NCBI GenBank assembly: GCA_947453445.1
Contig: CANGGP010000017.1
Location: 1 to 52,452, forward strand
Direction: 5' to 3'
Origin: Sphingobacteriaceae bacterium
GTDB taxonomy: Bacteria; Bacteroidota; Bacteroidia; B-17B0; Aurantibacillaceae
Length of the DNA: 52,452 nt
Part shown: positions 1 through 35,797 of the stretch, one piece after another
Layout of the letters: every line of letters begins with the position of its first letter
How positions within the stretch are numbered: the stretch's first letter is position 1
Notes under the pieces: model-generated
The model's input: only the letters and a program-made list of their open reading frames with translations
The model's database searches: none
Told to the model about the DNA's origin: nothing
Program-made: the position numbers and the translations under genes

Positions 1-3000
1 GGCAGTGCTTAATCCTGATGCAGGTTGGCTGATGGCAATGGTGTTGGTAAGGCTACAAGCATTTGCATCGGTAAGGGTTACGGTTCTTACGCCGGCGTTT
101 AAAGTGCTAATCACTGAGGTGGTAGCTGCGCTAGACCATAAATACGAATAAGGTGTTGTTCCACCCGAAGCAGTAAGCGTGGCCGAGCCTGTAGAATTAC
201 CGAAACACAATACATTGGTTACAGCTGTGTTGCTGCTCAAAGCAGTAGGTTGGGTAATGGTGATTGTGTTGCTGGAAGTACAAGCATTGGCATCGGTAAC
301 GGTTACCGTTCTTACACCTGCGTTTAAGCCGGTCACAACAGACCCTGTGGCAGAATTAGACCATAAGTAAGAATACGGCGATGTGCCTCCGGATGCTGTG
401 ATAGTTGCTGCGCCAGAGCTATTTCCAAAACAAAGTACATTAAGAATAGCTGTTGCAGAGCTAAGCGCTGAAGCCGGTTGACTAATATTGACTGTGTTTT
501 GTGTTTTGCAACCTCTTGTGTCGAGTATGGTAACTGTTCTACTACCAATGCTGAGTCCTGTAATGGAAGATGTTGTGGCACCGGTAGACCAAGAGTAGGT
601 ATAGGGTGATAAGCCACCTGAAGCATTTGCCAAAGCAATACCTGAACTGCCGCCATTACAGGCAACATTGGTAAAACTAATACTGGCACTTGGTAAAGGA
701 TAAACTGTCACGTTAAAAGTTGCATTGTTTGCGCTAAGGCAACCTGCAGCACTTGTTCCGCTTAAAGAATAGGTGAGGGTTGAAGCTGGTGTAAAAGTAA
801 CAGCATTTGTTATTCCACCTGTAAATGTATAGGTGTTTGCACCTGAGCCTGATAAAACAACCGTGTTGGTTTGACAGACAGAATTGGTGCTGGCAACAAT
901 TGCAACTGTTGGCAAGGCGTTAACCGTTACTAAAACGGAAGCGATGTTTGTATTACTGCAACCTGCAGCACTTGTTCCATTCACTGAATAAGTTCCTGTA
1001 ACAGTTGGAGAAAATGGTGAACCATTTGTAATACCACCTGACCAAGTATAAGTTGACGCGCCGGAAGCATTTAAGGTAATGGCATTTCCTAAGCAAACAG
1101 CAGTGTTAGATCCTGCGCTAATTGTAGGTCGAGCAACAACAGTAATAGTAACCGGTGTACGAGAAGAAGTAGAGCATGATGAAGTAGAGGAGTATGAAAT
1201 CACCACAGATCCATTGCCTGTGTAGGATGATCCGGAAGAGAAAGTAATGCTAGATAAAACGCCATTGTTAGCATACGACGATCCGCCGCCGCCGCCGCCA
1301 TTGCAACCGCCATTGCCCGACATGCCGCCAGAGCCACCGTAATAACCACCACCGCCGCCACCGGCACCATTCACGCCGCCTCCGCCGCCGCCGAATGTTC
1401 CCGCATTATCACCACCGGCACCACCTTGGCCAAGTGAACCGGCTTCACCATAACCACCTGAAGGTGCACCAGTAGTGCCGCCTCCGCTGCTTAATCCGCC
1501 GCCTGAACCTCCTGAACCATAATTGGCTGAAGAACCACCCAAACATCCGCCAGCTCCGCCATTCGCACAGCCGGTTCCATTACCACCACCATATCCCAAA
1601 GGAGATGAACATGAACTTCCTGCAGCGGCATTGCCCGGAACTGGATTATATGTTGTATTTCCACCGGAACCTCCACCACCGGCGGCAACTAAAATTCTAT
1701 TTGTTAGGGCATTACCTCCATTACGTACATCTGAAGCGCCACCACCACCGGCTCCCTGACTTGAGCTTCCGATACCGCCATCTCCACCGCCATTAAATCC
1801 TCCGGCAGTTACACTGCCCATGCCACCGGCATAGATGTAGAGGGTTTGACCAGGTGTTACATTCAATACGCCGGTAGCTTGTGAACCAAAGCCACCACTA
1901 AAAGCCGCCGCACCACCTTGGGCGCCAATGGCTGAAATTGTAATACTCGTAATGCCATTTGGAACAACAAATCGCTGTTCGGTGCCCGTATATGAGAAGG
2001 TTTGATTGACTAAGCCAATTGCTTGAACTCCTTCTGCATAATAAGTTGTATTGGCTACTGGTGTTGAATTAAAATAGTTTCCGCTGATATTGCTGTAAAT
2101 TGCCGAACCGCCACTCGGTGTGGTATACCAATTAATATTGGAGGCACCTCCGGCTGAAATATTGATTGTATTGCCTGCACAAACTGAATTGTTACTTGAT
2201 GCAGTAAGTGTAGGTAAGGCATTCACAGTAATAAAAACAGTGGCCACATTACTACTTGTGCAGCCGGCTGCACTGGTACCTGTTACAGAATATGTGCCTG
2301 AACTTGATGGTGCAAAGGCAACACCATTGGTGACGCCACCGGTCCAAGCGTATGTGCTGGCACCGGCACCATTTAAAATGGTAGTTGATCCGAAGCACAC
2401 TACCGGACTGCTTGCAGTGGCAGATACTGTTGGCAGAGGATTAACAAGTATTACTTGTTGATGCGAAACATATCCAAATGTGTAAGTGATGGTAAAATTG
2501 GTTGGTGTTGATACCATTGGTGCTGTAAATATATTTCCCGATACACCTGTACCTGAGAAGGTACCGGGGTTACCATATCCGCCCGGGGTACCGCCAACAT
2601 TGGCTGGTGTTGCTGATAAAACTCTAGTTTGACCAGAACACATTGCTGCTCCGGACGAAGTGAATACAATGTTGTCGTTTTGTCGAACATACAAGTTTAT
2701 TGAGGCAGAACCACCGAGACTACAGCTAAATTCAGATACTTGAACATACATGTAATTGGTGAAATTAGGCACATAATTGTCTATAGAGGCATTTAAACCT
2801 GCACACAAAGGCCCGCTATCATCGTTGTAAAAAAGCACAGAAGTGACTGATGGATCCCAGCCGGTTAATTGTGTGTCGATACTGGCCCCACAGGTGCTAA
2901 CAGCATAACTTCCTCCGTTCAAAACAGGAAAGGCAAAATAGTATCCCGGCCCATAATTAAAATATGTATTAAAGCTTGTTCCCGAGCTTGGCGGGATAAC

Positions 3001-9382: not shown

Positions 9383-9484
9383 AAAAAAAGGGTAAGCTAC
9401 TTCCATCGCACCGCTCAACCACTTACCCTTGCTCCGTTCCCAGCCTGGGGGATTCAGCAGGAGCTGGTCGTGAAAGACTTACCC
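9383..9484 (-). ncRNA. ffs: Small bacterial SRP RNA (4.5S-type) with its terminator
   Basis: The RNA component of the signal recognition particle that binds Ffh and directs membrane protein insertion. On the minus strand the ends pair (GGGTAAG at 9484-9478 with CTTACCC at 9396-9390). The apical part reads GAATCCCCCAGGCTGGGAA then CGGAGCAAGGG, which holds the conserved CAGG...GGAA tetraloop...GGAGCA of SRP domain IV. Length is about 95 nt. The 3' end is followed by seven T (9389-9383). A -7 element TACTTTTG at 9496-9489 sits the right distance upstream for a start at 9484. Confidence 0.9.
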
Positions 9485-9488
9485 GTGG

Positions 9489-9496
9489 CAAAAGTA
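9489..9496 (-). promoter_or_regulatory. -7 promoter element of the SRP RNA
   Basis: TACTTTTG on the minus strand matches TAnnTTTG and ends five bases before the inferred 5' end of the SRP RNA. No good TTG is seen at -33. Confidence 0.55.
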
Positions 9497-14844: not shown

Positions 14845-17121
14845 TTAGGATTTTATTTTGTATCGTAAACCGGCGTATGACATCCGACCGTATATTGGGC
14901 CCCATACCATCGAAGCATCAAAGTACTTTGAATAAGGGGTGTCGGCCGATAATATCGGATTGGCTTGTTTGTAATTCAATAAATTTTCTACGCCAAGATA
15001 AACATGGAAGGCATTGTTTTTAATTTTGGTTAAAAAAGTAATTTGTGCCAAAAGGTTAAAAAAATCGGGAGAGTATTTTGGCAATCGATAAGCTGAAGGA
15101 TTTTCTGAAGTACCTGGTAACCTTTTGCTGCCGTTGTATTGCGTGGTGAAATCGAACTGCCAATGGTTGTTTTTTGTTTCGTAAGCAAAATTTATAAAAG
15201 CGCGGTGGGCGGATACAAAATTCTTTTGCAATAATCCTTCGCTGGTGTGCACCATGGTTTCAACAAAACGATAGGCCGATTTTACAAATAAACGTTTGCG
15301 AGGCTCCATGTTAAATTCAAATTGTGCAGTGTTGGAATAGGAGGGACCTTTTAAATTATAGATGACTACTTTTTGTGCCGATTGATCAATGTCGGTTACA
15401 ACTTGATTTACAAAGTCGGTGCGATAGGCATCAAGTGTTATGTAGGCATCTCGGTAATTGACTTTAAATTTTTGCGTGAAATTTAATCCGTAATTCCATG
15501 CAATTTCAGGATTTAAGCCATAGGGATTTTTGCTGTTATTTGATTCGATGTGCCACACGCGGCTACTTGCCATGAGTGCAGTGTTGTCGGTAAAAATGTT
15601 CGCTGTTCGCAAGGCACGGCCACCACTGAGTCGTAAAACGCTGTTTTTTGTAAATGCATAACGCAGGTGTAAGCGTGGGGTGGCGAACAAGCCATAATAA
15701 TTGTGGTAATCGGCACGAATACCTGCAACAACATTAAATTTTTCCTTGTAATTGTGTGCAAATTCAGCAAAGGTACCGGCAACAGTTTCTGTTCGTTTGA
15801 AATTAAAGTTGGTGATGTTATTGATATTGCTTGAAATCAAATTGCTGTATGATTCAATTACATTGTCGTTCATCATGCTTAATCCAATTTTGTAGCTGTT
15901 GTTTGTGCTGCCGAGGATGCCTTGATAAATGAAATTGGCATAAAATGTTTTTTGTAAACCCGAATACATATTTGCACCATAAGTGTTGTTTTGGTTGTGG
16001 TTTAGGTAAGAGAGCTGCAAGCCCATGCTGGTGCCCGGTTTCTTTCTGAACACATAACCGGTTTTACTGTACACTTCCCATTTATTGTTTTTGATCAAGG
16101 TTTTATAATATGGCAAACTGTCCTGCCCGCTATTTCTTAAAGAGGCAAATTGTCCGCCTTCTCTGTTATCCGATAAATAAGCGCCTCCGAATTGTGCTTC
16201 AAAGCCCTTGTGACTGTAGGCATACTTATTCATAATGTTGTATTGTTTTCCGATGGGAATGTCGGCAAATCCATCACCGTTATGGTCTTGCACAAGCGGA
16301 TTGGCGCTAAAGTGACTTAGTAAGGCGGTTGAGAATTTTTCGTTTAAGCGATGCGACAGATTTAAATTGTATTCGTTTCTGCCGTTTTCATTGGCGTAGG
16401 TATTAAAATTCAACTTATCGCTTTGATGGGGATTTTGCAATTCGGTGTTGATTTGCCCGGTGAAACTTTCGTAACCGTTTATTACTGAGCCTGCGCCTTT
16501 ACTGAGTTGAATGGATTGAATCCAAGTACCCGGCACAAAACTTAAGCCATAATTGTTGGCTAAGCCGCGCAAATAGGGCATGTTTTCCTTGGTAATCTGA
16601 GCATATTGTCCTGATAAGCCCAACATTTGAATTTGTTTTGTGCCGCTGATGGCATCCGCAAAATTAACATCGATGCTTGGATTCGTTTCAAAGCTCTCAG
16701 ATAGATTACAACATGCGGCTTTCATTAAACTGCGTTCGTTTAGCACTTCTACTTTAATAGGATTTAGGTAAGATATTTCGGTGCCGTTGCTGTAGTATAT
16801 GATTTCAACTTCATTTAATCCCGCATTGTTTTTTAATGCAATCAATAAAAATTGTTTGTTGTCTTTGATTGTTAAAGTGTCGTTTTCATAACCGATGGCA
16901 CGAATGATGAGGCGATTGTTATTTGGGTCTTTCTTTAAACGAAAATCGCCATTTGCATCGGTTTGTGCCGAAATACTTGAATTGAGCCAATACACCAATG
17001 CACCCGGCACAAGGCTGGTATCGCCTTTGTCTGAAATTTCGATGATTTTACCTTTTACTTGTGCCAACAATGGAGTACTTGTTGCTAAAAAAAGCAGCAA
17101 TAAAAATGTGATTTTTTTCAT
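14845..17121 (-). CDS. TonB-dependent outer membrane receptor, metal-linked
   Basis: A 758-residue receptor. Signal peptide 1-20 (ends LLAQ), then a carboxypeptidase-regulatory-like domain (about 21-95), a plug domain (about 115-230, with QIQMLGLSGQYAQITKENMP and LSKGAGSVINGYESFTGQIN) and a beta-barrel to the C-terminus (ends MSYAGLRYKIKS). The AACCNLSESFETNPSIDV segment with two adjacent cysteines is characteristic of the receptor subgroup found with HMA proteins. The gene follows the HMA gene by five bases. Transport of a metal, most likely copper, or a metal complex is inference from context. Confidence 0.9.
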   Translation of the reverse strand: MKKITFLLLLFLATSTPLLAQVKGKIIEISDKGDTSLVPGALVYWLNSSISAQTDANGDFRLKKDPNNNRLIIRAIGYENDTLTIKDNKQFLLIALKNNAGLNEVEIIYYSNGTEISYLNPIKVEVLNERSLMKAACCNLSESFETNPSIDVNFADAISGTKQIQMLGLSGQYAQITKENMPYLRGLANNYGLSFVPGTWIQSIQLSKGAGSVINGYESFTGQINTELQNPHQSDKLNFNTYANENGRNEYNLNLSHRLNEKFSTALLSHFSANPLVQDHNGDGFADIPIGKQYNIMNKYAYSHKGFEAQFGGAYLSDNREGGQFASLRNSGQDSLPYYKTLIKNNKWEVYSKTGYVFRKKPGTSMGLQLSYLNHNQNNTYGANMYSGLQKTFYANFIYQGILGSTNNSYKIGLSMMNDNVIESYSNLISSNINNITNFNFKRTETVAGTFAEFAHNYKEKFNVVAGIRADYHNYYGLFATPRLHLRYAFTKNSVLRLSGGRALRTANIFTDNTALMASSRVWHIESNNSKNPYGLNPEIAWNYGLNFTQKFKVNYRDAYITLDAYRTDFVNQVVTDIDQSAQKVVIYNLKGPSYSNTAQFEFNMEPRKRLFVKSAYRFVETMVHTSEGLLQKNFVSAHRAFINFAYETKNNHWQFDFTTQYNGSKRLPGTSENPSAYRLPKYSPDFFNLLAQITFLTKIKNNAFHVYLGVENLLNYKQANPILSADTPYSKYFDASMVWGPIYGRMSYAGLRYKIKS

Positions 17122-17126
17122 TAGTT

Positions 17127-17468
17127 TTATTTTTCACATTTTTTACTGCGGTACTTGCAGCAGGCCGGTAATTTTGCATAAGCAGCATCACTTGCTTTTA
17201 AACTGTCGATATCATGTCCTGCCGCTACAATGGCTTGAATGATTTGTAAGGCTGTTACTTTATCCTCTCGAAAGGTAACGGTGAGTATATTTGTTTTGGC
17301 ATCCCACTGCGCCAGTTTAACGCCTTTGATGTCGGCTGCATTTTCGATGCGTTCTTTGCATTCGCCGCAATTGCCGCTAACATGAATGGTGTTTGTTTGA
17401 ATGCTTTTTACCTGTGCAAAACTGCAGGTGCTAATCAAAAGACTTAGCAAAAAGATGAATGTTCTCAT
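17127..17468 (-). CDS. Heavy-metal-associated (HMA) domain protein
   Basis: A 113-residue exported protein. Signal peptide 1-18 (ends SFAQ), then one HMA fold: HVSGNCGECKERIENAA has the metal-binding CxxC (C34 and C37 approximately), followed by GVKLAQWDAKTNILTVTF and ALQIIQAIVAAGHD. Such periplasmic one-domain proteins bind Cu(I) or similar soft metals. A C-terminal LPACCKYRSKKC adds further cysteines that could also bind metal. It is the middle gene of the operon with the HYC_CC_PP protein and the receptor. Confidence 0.88.
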   Translation of the reverse strand: MRTFIFLLSLLISTCSFAQVKSIQTNTIHVSGNCGECKERIENAADIKGVKLAQWDAKTNILTVTFREDKVTALQIIQAIVAAGHDIDSLKASDAAYAKLPACCKYRSKKCEK

Positions 17469-17530
17469 AAAAATAAATTAAAGATTGATGAATAGAATAT
17501 ACAGGGTGTAGGATACACCTGAATCATCAA

Positions 17531-17971
17531 TCAAATTCTAAGAACAGCACAATTTAAAATTGTTTTTTGGCAGAGTTTAGGTGGGGGAAATTGTTTCTGA
17601 ATGAAACATGAAAAACTTTGTTCGGATAATAAGTTGTTTGCTTGTACAGGGAAGATTTGACTAATTACTTGTGAAAAAGACTTTGAACAATCGAGATGTA
17701 CAATTTTGATTGAGAAATTGCTGCCGTTGTGCAAATAAAAGTTTTCGTTGTGGCAACAATCGCTTGTGGCATCTTCGTCATCACCGCAACAACTGTTGGC
17801 TTTTACTAGGTAACTAACTTGTTCAAGTTTTCCGCCACAATAGTGTAAATAAACGGGCATGCCAATGGTGGAAAATAAGTACACTGATACACAAATGCCA
17901 AATAAATATTTCCTGAGTAAATTGATAACGTAAAGGTCAAGAAAAAAAGGGGATAAAAAAATGATTTTCAT
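17531..17971 (-). CDS. HYC_CC_PP-type small exported protein, probably metal-binding
   Basis: A 146-residue protein with an N-terminal hydrophobic segment (about 17-36). It then has the motifs that name the family: HYCGGKL, a CC pair in NSCCGDDEDATSDCCHNENFYLH (C/H-rich, likely metal ligands) and QFPPPK near the end. In Bacteroidota these proteins sit next to HMA proteins and TonB receptors, as here. The Cys/His cluster fits metal capture. The exact start is uncertain: the first 15 or so residues could be leader. Confidence 0.7.
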   Translation of the reverse strand: MKIIFLSPFFLDLYVINLLRKYLFGICVSVYLFSTIGMPVYLHYCGGKLEQVSYLVKANSCCGDDEDATSDCCHNENFYLHNGSNFSIKIVHLDCSKSFSQVISQIFPVQANNLLSEQSFSCFIQKQFPPPKLCQKTILNCAVLRI

Positions 17972-18128
17972 CTTAAATTTTATTAATTCAATCTAAGATG
18001 ATAAATATTTGTTTTGACTGTTTTATGTTTTTATGATGAAAAAAATTGCAATATGAAGACATACTTCCTTTTATTTAAAATCCAATTATGAAATAGTTTG
18101 CCGATTTAATTATTTCACTTTTTGCATA

Positions 18129-18300
18129 TTGTTCCTTTTCCATGGCTTAAATTTGACAAGTTAAAGGCGCGACAAGTTAATTTTTTATGCACAATGAGCC
18201 ATTTCATAAACAGGATTTGTGAAGTTCGGTAGGCAATTTAAAGCACTTTTGAACAAGAAAGAAAGCAATCCTCATTTGACGAAAAAAACACGTCAATTTT
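18129..18300 (+). ncRNA. Candidate small RNA from orphan promoter
   Basis: Promoter-like TTG-N16-TAAATTTG (18129-18155) would start an RNA near 18160. The hairpin TTGACG-N9-CGTCAA at 18276-18296 followed by four T could end it at about 140 nt. No protein longer than about 11 residues is encoded. There is no direct evidence for expression. Confidence 0.25.
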
Positions 18301-18453
18301 CATGTTTTGAAATGAATGAATAGGAATGTATTTTGAGAGAGTTTTGATTTTTATTTAAAGGAAATTGAAAAGACCTATTGCTTCATTCACATATAGTTTT
18401 GTAGACTATTGTGCCTTTGTTTTGAAGTATCATTTATGAATTTCCTGTCAATT

Positions 18454-18490
18454 AAAAAGCCTTTAAGAAACTTAAATCTTAAAGGCCTTT
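18454..18490 (-). terminator. Rho-independent terminator of the GldL/GldM-like gene
   Basis: A nine-base stem (CTTAAAGGC/GCCTTTAAG) is flanked on the minus strand by TTTTT and on the plus strand by TTTT, so it can work in both directions. It lies about 20 bases after the stop of the minus-strand gene. Confidence 0.7.
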
Positions 18491-18511
18491 TAAATGTGAA
18501 TGGTTACCGGT

Positions 18512-19534
18512 TTACTGCATCATTAATTGATGCAATGCTGAGGACTCTGCATTTCTAATTTCAGCATTCAACTGATCAAGAGTAAGCACCACAGATGCTA
18601 CAGGTCGGTGGTCAAAGTTGCATTGTTCCCATTCTAATTTTTGGGCATCTTCCACCTCACAACCATTTGTTTCAAGGCCAATGGAGTTGGCAATTTTATT
18701 TTTTATTTCTCCATCGAATAATTTTAATAAACCTTCACGATAGGATATTAGTTTTAATTTCAGTTCTAAGCCCTTACCTGAATTTCCATTACCATCGGTA
18801 CCTAACATAATGAAAGTTGGCGTGTCATAATCACCCTTAGCGGCTAGGGCATAAAGATCAATGCCTTTGCTTAAGTCTAATTGAGGATCTTGAGGCTTTG
18901 CGGCTTTAATTATTTCTATTTTAAGATCTGTGATGTAGGCGATAAGTTCATCTGACATTGATTTGATTTTTAGTGCATTTTCTTTTTTAATGCTATCTAA
19001 TTCAAGTTTGTTAATGAGGCTGCTGTTGCCTTGATTTGTTTTTTCAGTTTGACTAAGTATAGATTGGTCGATAAAACTCAAACCATTTAATACATGCGAA
19101 GGCAATGAATTCCAGCGTATTAGGATATAACTCGATAAAGTAAAATAAATCACAAGGAATCTAATTCCCGCTGACTTTTTATTCTCATCCGTTTCCCCTT
19201 TATTATATATAAAGTAAAAAATGAGTAAAATGATATTGAGAGGGATCAGGATTTTTACAAAGGGTAAACCTGCACCAGGCCAATGCATGATCTTAAAGAG
19301 GCCAAAAACAACTTGCAACAATAATGAAATTGTCAACACAATAATAAAGTTCTTTTCACTCGAAGTGCGGGCTAAATCTATTGACGATTTAAGCGAGAAT
19401 AAAAGATATAATAAAACTAGTAAGCTGCCAACAATGATCAATACACTCGCGCCGGGCCAATGCATGATTTTAAAAACAGAGCCAATAAACAGTGATAAGG
19501 CGCCTAAATTGCCCAATGATTTTGAAATGTTCAT
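18512..19534 (-). CDS. GldL-GldM-like fusion protein with duplicated GldL motif
   Basis: A 340-residue protein that combines features of the two T9SS/gliding motor proteins. Residues 7-110 hold four hydrophobic helices arranged as two hairpins, each with an identical FKIMHWPGA (21-29 and 80-88), the hallmark of GldL. A fifth helix (about 123-140, IRFLVIYFTLSSYILIRW) leads into a periplasmic region (141-340). Its end resembles GldM domain 1: SYREGLLKLF (264-273), WEQCNFDHRPVASVVLTL (302-319) and LNAEIRNAESSALHQL (322-337). The later GldM domains and the long cytoplasmic GldL tail are absent. The acidic residue in GldL's second helix, thought to carry protons, has no counterpart in helices 2 or 4. 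It is a lone gene with its own terminator. Its role is unknown; homology to GldL/GldM is judged from motifs. Confidence 0.75.
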   Translation of the reverse strand: MNISKSLGNLGALSLFIGSVFKIMHWPGASVLIIVGSLLVLLYLLFSLKSSIDLARTSSEKNFIIVLTISLLLQVVFGLFKIMHWPGAGLPFVKILIPLNIILLIFYFIYNKGETDENKKSAGIRFLVIYFTLSSYILIRWNSLPSHVLNGLSFIDQSILSQTEKTNQGNSSLINKLELDSIKKENALKIKSMSDELIAYITDLKIEIIKAAKPQDPQLDLSKGIDLYALAAKGDYDTPTFIMLGTDGNGNSGKGLELKLKLISYREGLLKLFDGEIKNKIANSIGLETNGCEVEDAQKLEWEQCNFDHRPVASVVLTLDQLNAEIRNAESSALHQLMMQ

Positions 19535-19866
19535 GTTGTATAGTTTAAAATTATTCCTACTCGTTTGGCTTTTCGGTATCGCCTCGTTTTTGAAAGGGTT
19601 TCTGACTCCCTATCAAATCTAAAAGAAAATAAATTAAAAGCAAAAAATTACAACTAATAATTGCAATTTGTTCAAAATTGCCTATCGCTTAAATTTGCAC
19701 GAAGTGGGTGTAGATTTCTGCTAATGCGTTGGCATTAGACTTCATCTATTAGCTTTTATGTTAAAGGTAATTCAACTAAGGTTAAAGGTAAAAATATCTT
19801 AAGGTGTTAATTAGCGAGATTACTCCAAACCTTATTTAAAGTAACAATAAATGATTTTATAGAAAA
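19535..19866 (+). other. 332-bp intergenic region with orphan promoter and structured RNA candidate
   Basis: No gene-like frame. It contains a plus-strand promoter with ideal spacing (TTG 19668-19670, TAAATTTG 19690-19697) followed by a nested hairpin (19711-19748). The part near 19800-19866 is AT-rich with no further feature that I can see. Confidence 0.55.
19668..19756 (+). ncRNA. Candidate small RNA with nested hairpin
   Basis: TTG-N19-TAAATTTG (19668-19697) would start transcription around 19701. Directly after it, CTAATGC-GTTG-GCATTAG (19721-19738) forms a tight hairpin enclosed by TAGAT/ATCTA (19711-19715 and 19744-19748). No terminator with a T-run is evident and no protein is encoded. 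Confidence 0.3.
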
Positions 19867-21381
19867 TTACAAATGAATAAATTTACCATAATACACTGAT
19901 TTTTTATCGCTGATTTGGTAAAAATAAACTCCGGATTTTAATTTGCTTATATCAATACTTGTTGAGTTTAGCGTGTTTTTGCTTTCTAATATATCAGCAC
20001 CGTTAAGGTCACTAATTTTTAAATTATATCCTTCGCTAAATGGTAAATCAAAACGAATTTGATTGGTTGCAGGATTGGGAAAACAACGGGCAATATTTTT
20101 TAAAAGCTTTCCGTTTTCAATTATACCAACGGTTTCTACTTCTCCATTGGCATTGAGTTTAAGTAAGAAGCTCTCCATGATATTTGGAATTGGTGCTTCA
20201 AGAATATTATATCTTAAACCGGAAATTAAACAACCTCCATCAGTTGTAAAACCTATACTTTTAGGATAATAGAACATATCAATACCATACTCTTTAGCCC
20301 AAATAATGTTCCCCATTGTATCTAATTTATTCACGTACATATTTGTGAGTTGATTTTGATTTAAAAAAGGAATATTAAAATCACATGAGAAGCATCCCAA
20401 AGTAAGTATCTCTTTTCCATTATAATCAACGTTGTTTAAATTACTTACATAGCCAGCATTGAGGCCTGCATTAGCAATCACGTTTGTTTTAAGAACATGA
20501 TTATTATTATCTATAATACTGTTAATCATGTATTGTAATGTATAAGACATATTAACTGCGGTATTTAAGCTATTGCCAATAAGAATAGATTTTGTTTTGC
20601 TTAAAGGAATTGTTTTTGAGTAATTTTTTAGCAAACCTAGCTTTCCATAAGAATAATTTGAATAAACACTATCGATTTCCTTACAGTTAATAATATTTAA
20701 TGAGGAATCAAGTACTAATTTTTCTGCATGTATTGATGAATTGGCGCAGGTTGGGAGAGAGAAGCCTGTTATAATTAATTTATTTTGAAATAAGCTTAGT
20801 TCTGTAATTCCACCGTGAAGAAGCGTTGAATCTGTTTTTTGCAATTGAGAATTTAGTGCGTATATTTTTGAAAATTGGGATTGACTAATAGATGCTTGAG
20901 AATAAAAAGTATAAAAGACCCCATTCTGTTCCACTACTTTTGCGTTTAAAATATCAAAACTTAATGGTTCAGAAATTTTATAAGTAGAGAGGTGTGTGTA
21001 ATTTGTATCAAGTTCCATGATTGCCAATTGCTTCCTGACCGGTGTAAATAAAGTATCGGTATAGACAGCTGCCCAATAAAGCTTGTTGTTTTTTCGGATT
21101 GGCTTATTGTAAGGAAAAAATGTGTTTTGAAATTTAACACTATCTATTAAATTTTGACTCTTATCAAAGAATAATACCTGTGCATAATTGAATTTGTTAA
21201 GTGAATTAGAAACACAATTTAAAACTGCATAAGTATTTTGATTATTTGAATTTACGATTTCTGAATAATATTTAGGTTGGTCAGATTGCAACAAACCAAA
21301 ATATTGACCAAAATTTTGACTAAAAAGGATGTTACAAAAGTAATTTATAAGGATAAATGCAAATAATATTCTTTTCGACAT
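19867..21381 (-). CDS. Secreted protein with T9SS type A C-terminal sorting domain
   Basis: A 504-residue protein with a signal peptide (1-21, ends LFSQ). The central part has no catalytic motif but contains repeated beta-strand segments with WAKEYG, GGCLISGLRYN typical of beta-propeller-like T9SS cargo. The last 75 residues form a type A sorting domain: CFPNPATNQIRFDLP, YNLKISDLNGADILESKN and DISKLKSGVYFYQISDK, ending GKFIHL. The domain directs export through the T9SS and is removed on the cell surface. It lies upstream of the GldL/GldM-like gene on the same strand, but more than 300 bp away, so a shared transcript is not evident. Confidence 0.85.
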   Translation of the reverse strand: MSKRILFAFILINYFCNILFSQNFGQYFGLLQSDQPKYYSEIVNSNNQNTYAVLNCVSNSLNKFNYAQVLFFDKSQNLIDSVKFQNTFFPYNKPIRKNNKLYWAAVYTDTLFTPVRKQLAIMELDTNYTHLSTYKISEPLSFDILNAKVVEQNGVFYTFYSQASISQSQFSKIYALNSQLQKTDSTLLHGGITELSLFQNKLIITGFSLPTCANSSIHAEKLVLDSSLNIINCKEIDSVYSNYSYGKLGLLKNYSKTIPLSKTKSILIGNSLNTAVNMSYTLQYMINSIIDNNNHVLKTNVIANAGLNAGYVSNLNNVDYNGKEILTLGCFSCDFNIPFLNQNQLTNMYVNKLDTMGNIIWAKEYGIDMFYYPKSIGFTTDGGCLISGLRYNILEAPIPNIMESFLLKLNANGEVETVGIIENGKLLKNIARCFPNPATNQIRFDLPFSEGYNLKISDLNGADILESKNTLNSTSIDISKLKSGVYFYQISDKKSVYYGKFIHL

Positions 21382-21514
21382 TAATTGAATGTAGAATTAA
21401 TATCTTATCATATTCAATACAATTTTTGAATTAAAACTAATAATGATTGTGCCATCGATTTTACTGAGTGAGTAAAAAGTGTTGGTAGCATTTTATGTAC
21501 CATTTGTAAAGCAA

Positions 21515-22291
21515 TTAATTCTGAAAACCACCCCACGCCTTATTCAAAGTATCCAAAAACACTTTTGAATCTTGCGCTCCCGACACCGCATATTTTCTGT
21601 CAAACACAAAAAAGGGTACACCTGTAACGCCAATTTGTTCTGCCTCTTGCAAATCGGTTAAAACTTCTTTAGCAAATTGTTTGCTTGCCAACATGCTTCT
21701 TAAATTGGTTTCATCTAAACCAATGGCTTTTCCCAGTTCAACGAGCACATTGTGATCGGCGGTGTTTTTGCCGTCAATAAAATAAGCCTTAAACAATTGT
21801 TCTTCGGCGGCATCACCTTTTCCTTGTGATTTGGCATACTGAATTAAACGGTGGGCGTCGAATGAATTGGCCACAACGGCTTTGTCGAAATGATAATTTA
21901 ATCCTACTTCTTTGGCCATACCTACAACATAATCCATTGTTTCTTTGGTTCTTTCCATGCTCCAGCCTTTGGTTTCGGCCAAATATTGCATGGTGTTTTT
22001 ATTGGGATCAGTAACCATATCAGGGTTTAATTGAAAACTCTTCCAAACAATTTCTATTTGGTCTTTCGCTTTAAACAATGCCAATGCACTTTCAAATTTT
22101 CGTTTGCCGATGTAGCAAAATGGGCACATTACATCAGACCAGATTTCAACTTTCATTTTTTTAACGGTTTTAGGGGTTGTGGTTGAATCCTCTAGTTCGG
22201 CAAATTTGGTAGTACTATTTTGTGAACATGCTGTGATTGAAACAAGTAAACAAGCACCCGCCAAAAGTTTGATGTGATTAAAGGAAATCAT
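21515..22291 (-). CDS. DsbA/FrnE-like thioredoxin-fold lipoprotein
   Basis: A 258-residue protein. From the ATG at 22291 the N-terminus is a lipoprotein signal with lipobox Cys in SITACSQ. The remainder (about 45-255) matches the FrnE-like DsbA family (2-hydroxychromene-2-carboxylate isomerase type): VEIWSDVMCPFCYIGKRKFE with the CxxC site, YLAETKGWS, SFDAHRLIQYAK, LFKAYFIDGKNTAD, and VTGVPFFVFDRKYAVSGAQ with the cis-Pro. Most FrnE proteins are cytosolic; here a lipid anchor would place it outside the inner membrane, where it could act on disulfides. The frame extends 15 codons further upstream without a better signal. Confidence 0.88.
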   Translation of the reverse strand: MISFNHIKLLAGACLLVSITACSQNSTTKFAELEDSTTTPKTVKKMKVEIWSDVMCPFCYIGKRKFESALALFKAKDQIEIVWKSFQLNPDMVTDPNKNTMQYLAETKGWSMERTKETMDYVVGMAKEVGLNYHFDKAVVANSFDAHRLIQYAKSQGKGDAAEEQLFKAYFIDGKNTADHNVLVELGKAIGLDETNLRSMLASKQFAKEVLTDLQEAEQIGVTGVPFFVFDRKYAVSGAQDSKVFLDTLNKAWGGFQN

Positions 22292-22390
22292 TCTACGAAT
22301 TAAGTTATTTTGATTTGCATTTGAAAATGAATGCACAAGACTATTTCAAAAAATCGTTAAACCTTCTAACTTCGTGAAAAATAATAAGCC

Positions 22391-23473
22391 ATGGATGCCT
22401 TGAAGGAAATGTTTAATAAAGGATTTTATGAATTGCTAGCAGGGCAGATAAGAAATGTAGAACCCGACTTTTCACACAAGTTATTTATAAAAGATGTTTG
22501 TTTTGATTTAGCGCAGCGTAGCTTAAATGAACGCTTGCGATATACTTCTGTTATTTTAAATAAATATTTGCCGCATCAGTACCCGAAAAATTTAAACTTG
22601 TTAAAGTCTGTGATACCCCATATGCCGGGCTCTTACACCAATTTGTTGTTTCCTGATTATGTGGCTCAATTTGGACAACACGATTTTGATACTTCTTTGG
22701 AGGCCTTAAAACATTTTACACAATTTGGTTCATCGGAGTTTGCCATTCGCGTATTTTTGAAAAAGGATTTTAAACGCACCATCAAGGTAATGGAAAAGTG
22801 GTCGAAAGATCATAACCACCATGTGCGACGATTGGCTTCAGAGGGCAGCAGGCCGCGTTTGCCTTGGTCGTTTAAGTTGGATGCCGTGATCCAAGATCCA
22901 AGTTTAACAAGCAATATATTAAACAATTTAAAAGCCGATTCGGTATTGTATGTGCGCAAATCGGTTGCCAATCATTTAAATGATATTTCGAAAGAACATC
23001 CCGATTACATGCTGAATTTGGTGCAAAAATGGGATGTTTCGAATGCCCACAGCGCCTGGATTATCAAGCATGCCAGCAGGACATTAATAAAAAAGGGGCA
23101 TGCCGGAAGTTTGGCTGTTTTTAATTTTGAGAAAAATCCAAAATTAAAAGTGAAGGCGTTAAAATTACAATCCAATCAAATAAAATTGGGTGAGTATTTG
23201 TCTTTTGAATTTGATATTGTTTCGGAGAAAAATAAAAATCAAAAATTGGTGGTTGATTATCTGATTCATTATCGAAAAAAGTCGGGTGAATTATCGCCAA
23301 AAGTTTTTAAGTTAAAGGAAGTGGATTTGGGTGCGCAACAAAATATGCACTTTGCAAAAAAACAGTTGATTAAAGATTTCACCACGCGCAAACATTATCC
23401 GGGAAAACATTTGCTTGAAATTCAAGTGAACGGCCAGCGTTTGTTGTCTTCTGCCTTTGAAATCATTGCTTAA
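22391..23473 (+). CDS. DNA alkylation repair protein, AlkC-like
   Basis: A 360-residue protein. Residues about 1-250 are HEAT-like helical repeats with VRRLASEGSRPRLPWS (about 144-159), a signature of the AlkC group of DNA glycosylases that remove N3-alkylpurines such as 3-methyladenine. Repeated VRKSVANHLNDISKEHP fits HEAT repeats. Residues about 265-360 form a beta-rich C-terminal domain (LGEYLSFEFDIVSEKNKNQKLVVDYLIHYRK, KHLLEIQVNGQRL), like the Ig-like domain described for AlkC. A TAACTTCG 17 bases upstream is an imperfect -7 element. No alkylation-response regulator is adjacent. Confidence 0.82.
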   Translation: MDALKEMFNKGFYELLAGQIRNVEPDFSHKLFIKDVCFDLAQRSLNERLRYTSVILNKYLPHQYPKNLNLLKSVIPHMPGSYTNLLFPDYVAQFGQHDFDTSLEALKHFTQFGSSEFAIRVFLKKDFKRTIKVMEKWSKDHNHHVRRLASEGSRPRLPWSFKLDAVIQDPSLTSNILNNLKADSVLYVRKSVANHLNDISKEHPDYMLNLVQKWDVSNAHSAWIIKHASRTLIKKGHAGSLAVFNFEKNPKLKVKALKLQSNQIKLGEYLSFEFDIVSEKNKNQKLVVDYLIHYRKKSGELSPKVFKLKEVDLGAQQNMHFAKKQLIKDFTTRKHYPGKHLLEIQVNGQRLLSSAFEIIA

Positions 23474-23540
23474 GAATTGGTTTTTTAACTTGGTATATTT
23501 CTATAATTTCTTTTTACATTTAATACATGATCTTTATAAA

Positions 23541-25175
23541 ATGAATGCACCAACCCTAAAAAAACAATGTTTATTTTTTGCTGTGATGCTCATTAACTTG
23601 GCATTTACAGCCCAGTCGAAATACAACCACTTGGATTCATTAAAAGGAACATACTCTGCTGCCCGCTCGTGGTGGGATGTTCGGCATTATGATTTACATG
23701 TTGATTTTAATGCACGCGACAGTTCAGTGAGCGGTTTTAATGTCATTCGTTACTTGGTACTTGAATCAAAAAGTGTGATGCAAATTGATTTGTTAGAACC
23801 CTTAAAAATTGACAGCATTGTGCAAAATGGAAAATTGCTTGAATATAGAAAGGATGGTCCTGCTTATTTCCTAAATTTAAAGGAAGCACAAATAAAAAAC
23901 AGTCGGCAAAACATTGTTGTGTATTACCATGGTAAGCCCAAAGTGGCGGTGAATCCGCCTTGGGATGGCGGCATTGTTTGGAAAAAAGATACAAATAAAA
24001 AACCATGGGTTTCTGTGGCTTGCCAAGGTATGGCGGCCAGGGTGTGGTTTCCGAACAAGGACCATATGGCTGATGAGGCCGACAGTGCCGATATGTATTT
24101 TTCTTGTCAAAATGATTTGATCTGTGTATCTAACGGTCGTCTGGTTGGTGTAAATCAATGGCATGGGAAATTACAATACCATTGGCAGGTTGTAAATCCT
24201 ATCAACAATTATAATATCATTCCCTACATTGGTGATTATGCAAATATTCAAGATACTTTGAAAGGTAAAGCCGGTATTTTGCCTATTAATTATTGGGTAT
24301 TGTCTGGTAATTATGAAAAGGCCAAAGTGCATTTTAAACAAGTTAAAAGTATGCTCAGGTGTTTTGAAGATTGGTTTGGTCCTTATCCTTTTTACGAAGA
24401 TGGTTACAAATTAGTGGAGGCACCCTATTTAGGGATGGAGCATCAAAGTGCAACGGCATATGGCAACAATTACGGAAATGGTTATTTGGGTAGGGATTTG
24501 TCGCGCACCGGATGGGGTTTAAAATGGGATTTTATTATTGTACATGAATCGGGACATGAGTGGTTTGGGAATAATATATCAGCCAAGGATGTGGCAGATG
24601 ATTGGATACACGAAAGTTTTACGGCTTATTCTGAAAATTTGTATGTAGAATATTTATTTGGAAAAGCTGCAGGTGCTGAATATGTTATAGGCACCCGACA
24701 ATCAATTATGAACAACGAAAAAATTATTGGTGATTATGATGTTAACAATGGCAGTTCGGGTGATTTGTATTACAAGGGCGCCAATTTATTGCATACAATT
24801 CGTCAATTGTGTAACAACGACAGTGTTTGGAAAGCTATGTTACAAGGATTAAACCAAACATTTTGGCATCAAACAGTAAGCAGTAAACAAATAGAAAATT
24901 ACATGTCCACTTTTTTAAAAATGGATTTAAGTAAAGTGTTTGATCAATATTTGCGTGAAACCAAAGTGCCGGTTTTTGAATATTATTTTAAGAAAGATCA
25001 ATTGTATTACCGTTGGAATGTTTGTATTAAGGATTTTAATATGCCTTTGAAAGTTAAAATTGGAGAGCAAACTGAATTGTTGCAGGTAACAGATCGTTGG
25101 TTGAAAATGAAAGTGAATTCAAATGAATTGAATGTTGATGTGAATTTTTACGTGTTCAGCAAGAAAATAAAATAA
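23541..25175 (+). CDS. M1-family zinc aminopeptidase, exported
   Basis: A 544-residue peptidase. A signal peptide (1-24, ends FTAQ) is seen when the ATG at 23541 is used; the frame is open 28 codons further upstream, but that overlaps the previous gene. The N-terminal beta domain (about 40-230) is followed by the catalytic domain: YLGMEHQSA (the exopeptidase GxMEN-like loop, here GMEHQ), zinc site HESGH (H335, E336, H339) with third ligand E358 in WIHESFTAY, and DLYYKGANLLHTIR with the catalytic Tyr. It removes N-terminal residues from peptides, probably in the periplasm. The C-terminal helical domain is shortened, and no T9SS signal is present. Confidence 0.9.
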   Translation: MNAPTLKKQCLFFAVMLINLAFTAQSKYNHLDSLKGTYSAARSWWDVRHYDLHVDFNARDSSVSGFNVIRYLVLESKSVMQIDLLEPLKIDSIVQNGKLLEYRKDGPAYFLNLKEAQIKNSRQNIVVYYHGKPKVAVNPPWDGGIVWKKDTNKKPWVSVACQGMAARVWFPNKDHMADEADSADMYFSCQNDLICVSNGRLVGVNQWHGKLQYHWQVVNPINNYNIIPYIGDYANIQDTLKGKAGILPINYWVLSGNYEKAKVHFKQVKSMLRCFEDWFGPYPFYEDGYKLVEAPYLGMEHQSATAYGNNYGNGYLGRDLSRTGWGLKWDFIIVHESGHEWFGNNISAKDVADDWIHESFTAYSENLYVEYLFGKAAGAEYVIGTRQSIMNNEKIIGDYDVNNGSSGDLYYKGANLLHTIRQLCNNDSVWKAMLQGLNQTFWHQTVSSKQIENYMSTFLKMDLSKVFDQYLRETKVPVFEYYFKKDQLYYRWNVCIKDFNMPLKVKIGEQTELLQVTDRWLKMKVNSNELNVDVNFYVFSKKIK

Positions 25176-34987: not shown

Positions 34988-35689
34988 TTAAATTTTATTA
35001 TTATCGTCTTTTTTCAATGCCAGTGGACGCATCAATTCAAGGGCATTTTTAACCCATTTGTTTTTTTTCTTTTCAGCAGCGGCGCGGTCGTAATACTTTA
35101 AAGCCATTTCAAAATCGCCAACCCGACGGTACATATCACCTACTAAAAATAAATATGATGCTTTTTCATTTTCGTCGTATTCTTTCATTTGCACGGCTTG
35201 GTCGTAGTATTCAATTACCTTGCGTTGTAAATCTTTTCGTTTTTCTTTTAAAGAATCGTTCATGCGCAATTGGTATGATGCCACCAAATAAGCATAGGCA
35301 ATGTCGCGGTTATCGGCTTTTTGAATGCTTAATATTTCGCCTGCCATTTCGCATTGGCTCACTTCATCGAGTTTACGATCTTTTAAAGTCGCCACATAAT
35401 CAATGATGTACTTTAAAACATCTTCCTTGTATGTTTTTCTGAAATCTTCGATATAACCCGAGAAATGGCATTTTGGACAAGTATTGATAATCTGCTGATA
35501 ATAGTCGCCCATGGTGCCTGTTTTTTCCATGTCGGTGTATGAACCCCAAGTATTAAGACCGGTGGTGATTTTAAAGATTATTTTTTCGCCGTCAACAGGG
35601 CATACAACTGTGTCATTTTTGGTGATATTGGCTTTTAAGCCCACAGAAATTAGAATGAAGAAAAAAGCAAAACGTAGTTTGTTCGTCAT
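34988..35689 (-). CDS. DUF2225 protein with CxxC-type metal site and TPR-like repeats
   Basis: A 233-residue exported protein (signal MTNKLRFAFFFILISVGLKA). The sequence CPVDGEKI ... NTCPKCHFSGYIEDF provides two Cys pairs that probably bind zinc and defines DUF2225. The rest is helical with a TPR-like stretch near the end (ASYLFLVGDMYRRVGDFEMALKYYDRAA). The function is not known. The ATG at 35689 is chosen because the signal peptide begins there; the frame extends 13 codons further. Ends near the OmpA-family gene on the other strand. Confidence 0.78.
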   Translation of the reverse strand: MTNKLRFAFFFILISVGLKANITKNDTVVCPVDGEKIIFKITTGLNTWGSYTDMEKTGTMGDYYQQIINTCPKCHFSGYIEDFRKTYKEDVLKYIIDYVATLKDRKLDEVSQCEMAGEILSIQKADNRDIAYAYLVASYQLRMNDSLKEKRKDLQRKVIEYYDQAVQMKEYDENEKASYLFLVGDMYRRVGDFEMALKYYDRAAAEKKKNKWVKNALELMRPLALKKDDNNKI

Positions 35690-35797
35690 TTTTAATAAAG
35701 TTTGATTCATAAAGATAAATTTAAGCACTTATCTGAGATTATATACAAAACCTGCTTTTTTATTTTAACAAGGCTTGTTGATATTGTTCACGCGTAA

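Follow-up and report, generated by a model that had tools for sequence, protein, structure and literature searches.

Single-chain fusions of GldL-type hairpins with a GldM domain in Bacteroidota and their possible role as membrane sensors

The proton-driven motor of the type IX secretion system (T9SS) and of gliding is built from two proteins, GldL and GldM (or PorL and PorM; PDB 6ys8, 7sat, 7sau, 7sax, and 7saz), in a 5:2 ratio. In the stretch of DNA analyzed here (52,452 nucleotides from a Sphingobacteriaceae genome, referred to below as the window) a single gene encodes parts of both, and the question raised by this locus is what a protein of this kind does. The initial annotation, made from the sequence alone, had suggested a stripped-down motor, a cap or regulator of GldLM, or a motor of another envelope system. 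The window protein resembles the GldL-GldM motor in its FKxxHWPG hairpins and in a GldM-like transmembrane (TM) helix followed by GldM domain 1 (D1). However, it differs from it in being one chain instead of two proteins, in having the hairpin doubled, and in lacking the motor glutamate (E49) and cytoplasmic tail of GldL and domains 2–4 (D2–D4) of GldM, and its relatives carry signalling domains.

Anatomy and fold of the fusion protein

The fusion gene (GldL-GldL-GldM D1) is an intact, single open reading frame (ORF) of 340 aa at positions 18512–19534 of the window, on the minus strand; the plus strand of the same segment contains many stops. Its assignment is based upon the ORF, Pfam matches, sequence profiles, and a structural model, and it is of the form that we refer to as bare (B). 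The motif FKIMHWPGA is present twice, at residues 21–29 (19448–19474) and 80–88 (19271–19297), and the two 27-base stretches encoding it differ at 4 positions. The first GldL-type hairpin (TM1–TM2) comprises residues 2–54 (19373–19531, minus strand) and the second (TM3–TM4) residues 58–111 (19202–19363, minus strand), both being supported by profile and model. They are followed by TM5 (residues 116–141; 19112–19189, minus strand), which the model and VIA-align place like the TM helix of GldM, and by a D1 predicted to be periplasmic (residues 146–340; 18515–19099, minus strand), identified by Pfam, profile, and fold. A full-length DUF805 RNA (RF03081) at 19550–19616 on the same strand ends 15 nt before the start codon and is likely the 5' leader of this gene.

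Both parts of the protein were recognized by Pfam, GldM_1st matching residues 148–338 (E 7.3e-27, 95.1 bits; cut-off 25) and GldL_N matching in two stretches (E 7.5e-8, 32.9 bits; cut-off 24). Independent profiles, constructed from 20 GldM D1 and 20 GldL sequences of other genomes with the window protein excluded, identified residues 147–340 as GldM D1 (E 9.2e-39) and GldL-type hairpins at residues 8–42 (E 7.3e-9) and 54–108 (E 5.6e-7), while the best E values from 1140 shuffled controls were 0.3 and 0.67. A sequence search of the PDB with the fusion protein gave GldM/PorM chains as the top matches and GldL as the fifth (E 0.0074). The described absence of the GldL tail and of GldM domains 2–4 was borne out, as the full-length GldL model TIGR03513 stayed well below its cut-off (20.4 vs. 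68.3 bits), and the match to the GldM model TIGR03517 (73.4 bits vs. 180) stops at position 223 of 524.

An AlphaFold model of the window protein, built on an alignment of 45 rows, has a mean pLDDT of 87.5 and a pTM of 0.78. It predicts four hairpin helices and a fifth helix (residues 2–23, 29–54, 58–82, 89–111, and 116–141) and then the D1 fold, as had been proposed. All of the 15 top PDB chains found with this model by Foldseek are from GldLM/PorLM or GldM/PorM entries. With VIA-align, nine GldM/PorM entries have Z scores of 16.7–22.7, the next entry, which is unrelated, scoring 7.9; residues 108–340 or 119–340 of the model are paired with GldM/PorM chains that start at residue 2–5. The charged loops of the window protein (K49, R56, K61; K112, K119, K120, R125) lie on the opposite side from the HWPGA loops, and because of this sidedness the arrangement that fits is one with the N-terminus inside and residues 146–340 in the periplasm, so that residues 141–340 are predicted to be outside and not cytoplasmic. 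In the family described below, D1 sits between an odd-numbered and an even-numbered TM helix, and hence outputs at either end of the chain, N-terminal in one form and C-terminal in another, both agree with a D1 that is outside.

The Lys and His residues of the motif matter in GldL, and in the alignment of 45 rows H25 and H84 are invariant and K22 and K81 are retained in at least 90%. E49 of GldL (F. johnsoniae numbering), located in TM2, is reported as strictly conserved and required for secretion (PMC8986121). It corresponds to a Glu 18 residues after the motif Lys (K+18), which is present in all 21 GldLs compared, including that of the genome from which the window derives. At this position the window hairpins have V40 and L99, which agrees with the earlier claim that they are devoid of the proton-carrying residue. 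Two small corrections to that description are an acid where helix 2 ends on the cytoplasmic side (D53) and a lysine in helix 4 (K94). The TM2 proline that is usual in the family is missing from both hairpins. Among 121 hairpins picked by motif from 57 proteins (the window protein and its non-motor relatives), none carries an acidic residue at the motor site; this pick missed one hairpin each in L038, L041, and L069 and included no fewer than two segments in error (position 121 in L096 and position 182 in L115). An acid within two residues of this position (K+16 to K+20) was seen in one hairpin of L095, and seven of the 57 proteins have an acid somewhere in K+8 to K+26. The family preserves the periplasmic end of the hairpin, together with the D1 that the hairpin would meet, but not the proton site.

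The family and its links to PadR and SpoIIE

The window protein is a member of an undescribed family of GldL-GldM D1 fusions in Bacteroidota. Fusions were found in at least 25 of 198 genomes sampled across the class, including its own, counting among the matches listed those that span profile positions ≤10 to ≥335 at E ≤ 1e-20; G230, cut by a contig end, is excluded from this count, and in G166 and G087 the sole qualifying row has one internal stop. A separate GldM was also seen in 21 of these 25 genomes, its own among them. Of 60 genomes of the relatives, 47 have a match at E ≤ 1e-5, a number in which matches to GldL and GldM are included. In 36 genomes of the same genus, no full-length match exceeds 33% identity to the window protein, and no close ortholog was found in them. 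Relatives spanning both parts contain them as single ORFs and not in separate frames; as there is no close ortholog among these 36 genomes, this observation pertains to distant relatives (45 alignment rows).

The sample of the family consists of the best 80 of 512 relatives, 24 of which are ordinary gldL or gldM loci; the others and the window protein make up the 57 hairpin proteins. A D1 at E < 1e-6 is present in 45 of the 57, and in these Pfam matched GldL_N in all 45 and GldM_1st in 43. They occur in three forms, viz. 27 P, 12 B (including the window protein), and 6 S. P proteins begin with a cytoplasmic domain of about 82 aa, which is followed by two or three hairpins, TM5, and D1. The S form (about 715 aa) consists of two hairpins, TM5, D1, a sixth TM helix, a coiled coil, and a SpoIIE-type phosphatase domain, whereas the bare form is either located directly behind a P gene or is an orphan, as in the window and in L057, L063, L073, and L078. 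A model of a P protein (L056; pLDDT 86.1, pTM 0.58) matches GldM/PorM entries at Z 14.9–19.4, with the next entry at 8.5. For the remaining 12 of the 57 proteins no D1 was detected at E < 1e-6, and hence D1 would not be required for every sensor of this kind. PadR-linked hairpin proteins with no detectable GldM D1 include those of L082, L090, L095, L104, L109, L111, and L113 (the last from Flavobacterium caeni, a cultivable relative), and judging from them the hairpin module may also work with other periplasmic parts. At L106 (7737–9365, plus strand), a second GldM-like gene of 542 aa lies 1.2 kb behind gldLM.

A PadR gene is present within 114 nt upstream of 30 of the 31 P genes with upstream DNA to examine, P genes located in front of a B at six loci being counted among the 31 (L036 and L051 begin at contig ends). 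In 18 of the 30 pairs the two genes overlap, as called from first start codons, and for the 31st P gene (L070) a PadR gene lies 1.5 kb upstream. The PadR of the window's own genome was identified by Pfam (E 8e-19) and those of other loci by phmmer against it. No other neighbour is common to more than 4 of 44 loci. PadR regulators that are paired with membrane proteins bearing a three-helix HAAS domain have been proposed as an alternative to two-component systems (PMC11237479). The P proteins resemble these dyads in having an N-terminal helical domain on a multi-TM protein beside a PadR gene (PMC11237479), but their TM part is GldL-GldM, and no GldL/GldM fusion is named in the portion of that paper considered here. 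The P domain is three-helical in the L056 model (helices 6–18, 24–41, and 48 onward). Pfam HAAS gave no match in 25 P N-terminal domains or in that of a PadR-linked protein in the window's own genome (contig C82). NCBIfam permease prefix domain 1 matched 13 of the 25 at E ≤ 1 (best 1.2e-8); it was above its cut-off in 2 of 10 P domains scanned singly and did not match the C82 domain. A sequence search of the PDB with the P domain gave no relative above chance level. The window protein itself is not dyad-like, as it starts at TM1, and no PadR match was found among the 96 window ORFs of at least 60 aa.

The SpoIIE domain is in the same chain in six S loci of the 57-protein sample and also in L006, L009–L012, and L023; none of the six S loci has a PadR gene. 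The S proteins are like other SpoIIE-type phosphatases behind membrane sensors in their order of sensor, TM helix, coiled coil, and phosphatase domain, but differ in that the sensor consists of two GldL hairpins and a GldM D1. In the open-licence PMC literature, nothing was found that joins GldM with SpoIIE, nothing on the subject for GldM with PadR, nothing for PF12081, and nothing on the subject for fused GldLM in signal transduction.

Hairpin numbers in PadR-linked operons

A two-hairpin B gene is located directly behind a three-hairpin P gene in 19 of 21 cases (16/18, and 3/3 further loci, six of the nine further three-hairpin loci being duplicates of earlier ones that were counted once). 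L038, L047, and L084 entered the sample through their B, a selection bias, and the P-found genes only give 16/18. None of the 19 two-hairpin P genes picked with 1200 bp examined is followed by a B (0/21 with the missed L103 and L115). Fisher's test of 16/18 vs. 0/21 gives 4e-9. However, when the two traits are mapped on a tree of 41 P proteins, no more than 3 and 2 changes are seen, and with two independent pairs significance is out of reach. The three-hairpin P proteins without a B (L068 and L099) form one clade, and the B of L065 is below the D1 threshold. A full three-hairpin match at E ≤ 1e-60 was found in one of 395 genomes of the class, few candidates being scored per genome, and 8 at E ≤ 1e-90 were found among 87 genomes of the order; no three-hairpin P was detected at the latter threshold in the window's own genome.

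The GldLM motor is described as having a 5:2 stoichiometry (PMC9389320). With three hairpins in P and two in B, P and B together would hold five hairpins and two GldM-like helices, which is the 5:2 of the motor; the lone two-hairpin P proteins do not fit this arithmetic. We put forward as a hypothesis, resting on two to three evolutionary changes, that P+B could be the equivalent of the 5:2 complex. A further-reaching proposal, which we regard as possible but hold only tentatively, is that a covalently tied, motor-dead copy of GldL5GldM2 serves as a receptor, in which a pseudo-complex of one P and one B, with five hairpins arranged around two GldM-like helices, would sense the energy state of the envelope or membrane and control PadR, and an orphan B would borrow the missing hairpins from a partner, possibly GldL itself.

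Readings of the window copy and its genomic setting

What is established is how the module is built, that it recurs, that the glutamate has been lost, and that the same module is joined to cytoplasmic outputs. As many relatives join this same piece to gene-switch or phosphatase parts, parts of the motor look to have been reused as a membrane sensor. The reading that we favour, and consider rather probable, is that the single-chain GldL-GldM module (two or three hairpins, one TM helix, and D1), now devoid of the proton glutamate, is the sensing and transducing part of signalling proteins, the window copy being a bare sensory subunit. In such proteins D1 would form pairs and respond to some state of the envelope or membrane, the GldM-like helices would be held by the hairpins in the manner of GldLM, and any shift within the bundle would be relayed to PadR or to the phosphatase; by analogy, candidate signals are envelope stress, the state of the T9SS, and membrane energy. 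Points against this reading are that the P N-terminal domain does not match Pfam HAAS, that no D1 was detected in 12 of the 57 hairpin proteins, and that one hairpin of L095 has an acid close to the motor position. The role of the window copy itself rests on analogy, as it lacks an output domain, a close ortholog, and a PadR gene within the window. Bare forms adjoin P forms in the PadR-P-B operons, and on this basis it would most likely form a complex with, and be the sensory subunit of, a signalling protein whose gene lies in another part of the genome.

Candidate partners are present. The genome contains four GldL_N proteins, viz. GldL, the window protein, one on C82, and one on C10, and it retains normal gldL and gldM. 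The C82 protein is PadR-linked and has two hairpins and a periplasmic part with no GldM_1st match. On C10, a 317-aa hairpin membrane protein (1282–2235, minus strand) is encoded directly before a SpoIIE phosphatase gene (100–1281, minus strand), an arrangement like a split S form. Either hairpin protein could be the partner of the window copy.

The anatomy given in the initial annotation is supported in full, but its two motor readings are not favoured by the relatives, which tie the module to the PadR-linked domain or the SpoIIE phosphatase and have no motor glutamate. We set the motor reading aside once signalling outputs had come to light and the picked hairpins had proved to have no acid in place of E49. 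A reduced motor of another envelope system that still uses energy, with protons taking another path, would have the same helices and D1 as the motor and the retained motif Lys and His in its favour, but the glutamate reported as essential (PMC8986121) is absent from hairpins across the family and D2–D4, the shaft reaching the outer parts, are absent; we regard it as highly improbable. A cap or regulator of GldLM is likewise not what the relatives point to, yet for the orphan window copy it is still a rival. By pairing with GldM through D1 or entering the GldL ring, the fusion could block, cap, or tune the motor of its own cell or assist its assembly. Its D1 outscores those of all other proteins in the set of 57 when compared with true GldM (125.5 bits), the nearest rows by path in a D1 tree are GldMs, the genome has gldL and gldM, and the gene is an orphan, as are four others. 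However, the fusion is not near gldLM in the genome (C17 vs. C8), D1 in the relatives more likely dimerizes with that of a neighbouring P or B, several relatives bear signalling outputs instead, and the tree (66 rows) does not place the window protein, whose end branch is 1.54 and which is in no starred set. We consider this regulatory role unlikely, and a decaying or functionless duplicate more unlikely still. The latter would agree with the orphan state, the identity of at most 33% to same-genus matches, and the missing TM2 prolines, but the ORF is intact, D1 is high-scoring, the fold is confident, a full-length leader RNA precedes the gene, and other orphan bare forms exist.

If the sensor reading is true, either a signalling receptor was made from parts of a rotary proton motor or receptors of this kind gave rise to the motor; as no branch of the D1 tree separates GldM from all other rows, this tree leaves the order undecided. 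The family would then point to an uncharacterized sensory system of Bacteroidota, in which a GldL-GldM module is combined with PadR or a SpoIIE phosphatase, and single-chain GldLM versions with fixed hairpin numbers would be usable for structural work.

The DUF805 RNA in front of the fusion gene is the only one found in this genome, and none was found near other fusions in 20 loci or, in a separate check, in 13. In all 20 loci of other genomes that contain this RNA (L116–L135), the ATG of an ORF of at least 60 aa is located 12–36 nt downstream (0/20 on the opposite side). The genes behind it are unrelated, and by eye many of them start with a signal peptide or TM helix. The RNA is present in 63 of 149 genomes of the class, often clustered at distances of a few hundred to two thousand bases, and it has the look of a 5' leader shared widely by envelope genes or belonging to a mobile gene set. 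One of the genes behind it (L126, 995–1492, plus strand; 15 nt downstream) encodes a protein of 165 aa that matches GldL_N; inspected by eye, it has two hairpins and lacks D1.

Plasmid records gave no match to positions 14845–25175 of the window. A 246-aa ORF at 34988–35728 (minus strand) is weakly matched by the GldM D1 profile (E 0.0009 in a search of the 96 window ORFs), which may be due to chance. At 14845–17971 (minus strand), an HYC_CC_PP protein, a heavy-metal-associated domain protein, and a TonB-dependent receptor are encoded in a row, which is probably a cluster for uptake or handling of a metal (copper-like), and a Bacteroidales small SRP RNA is located at 9386–9491 (minus strand).
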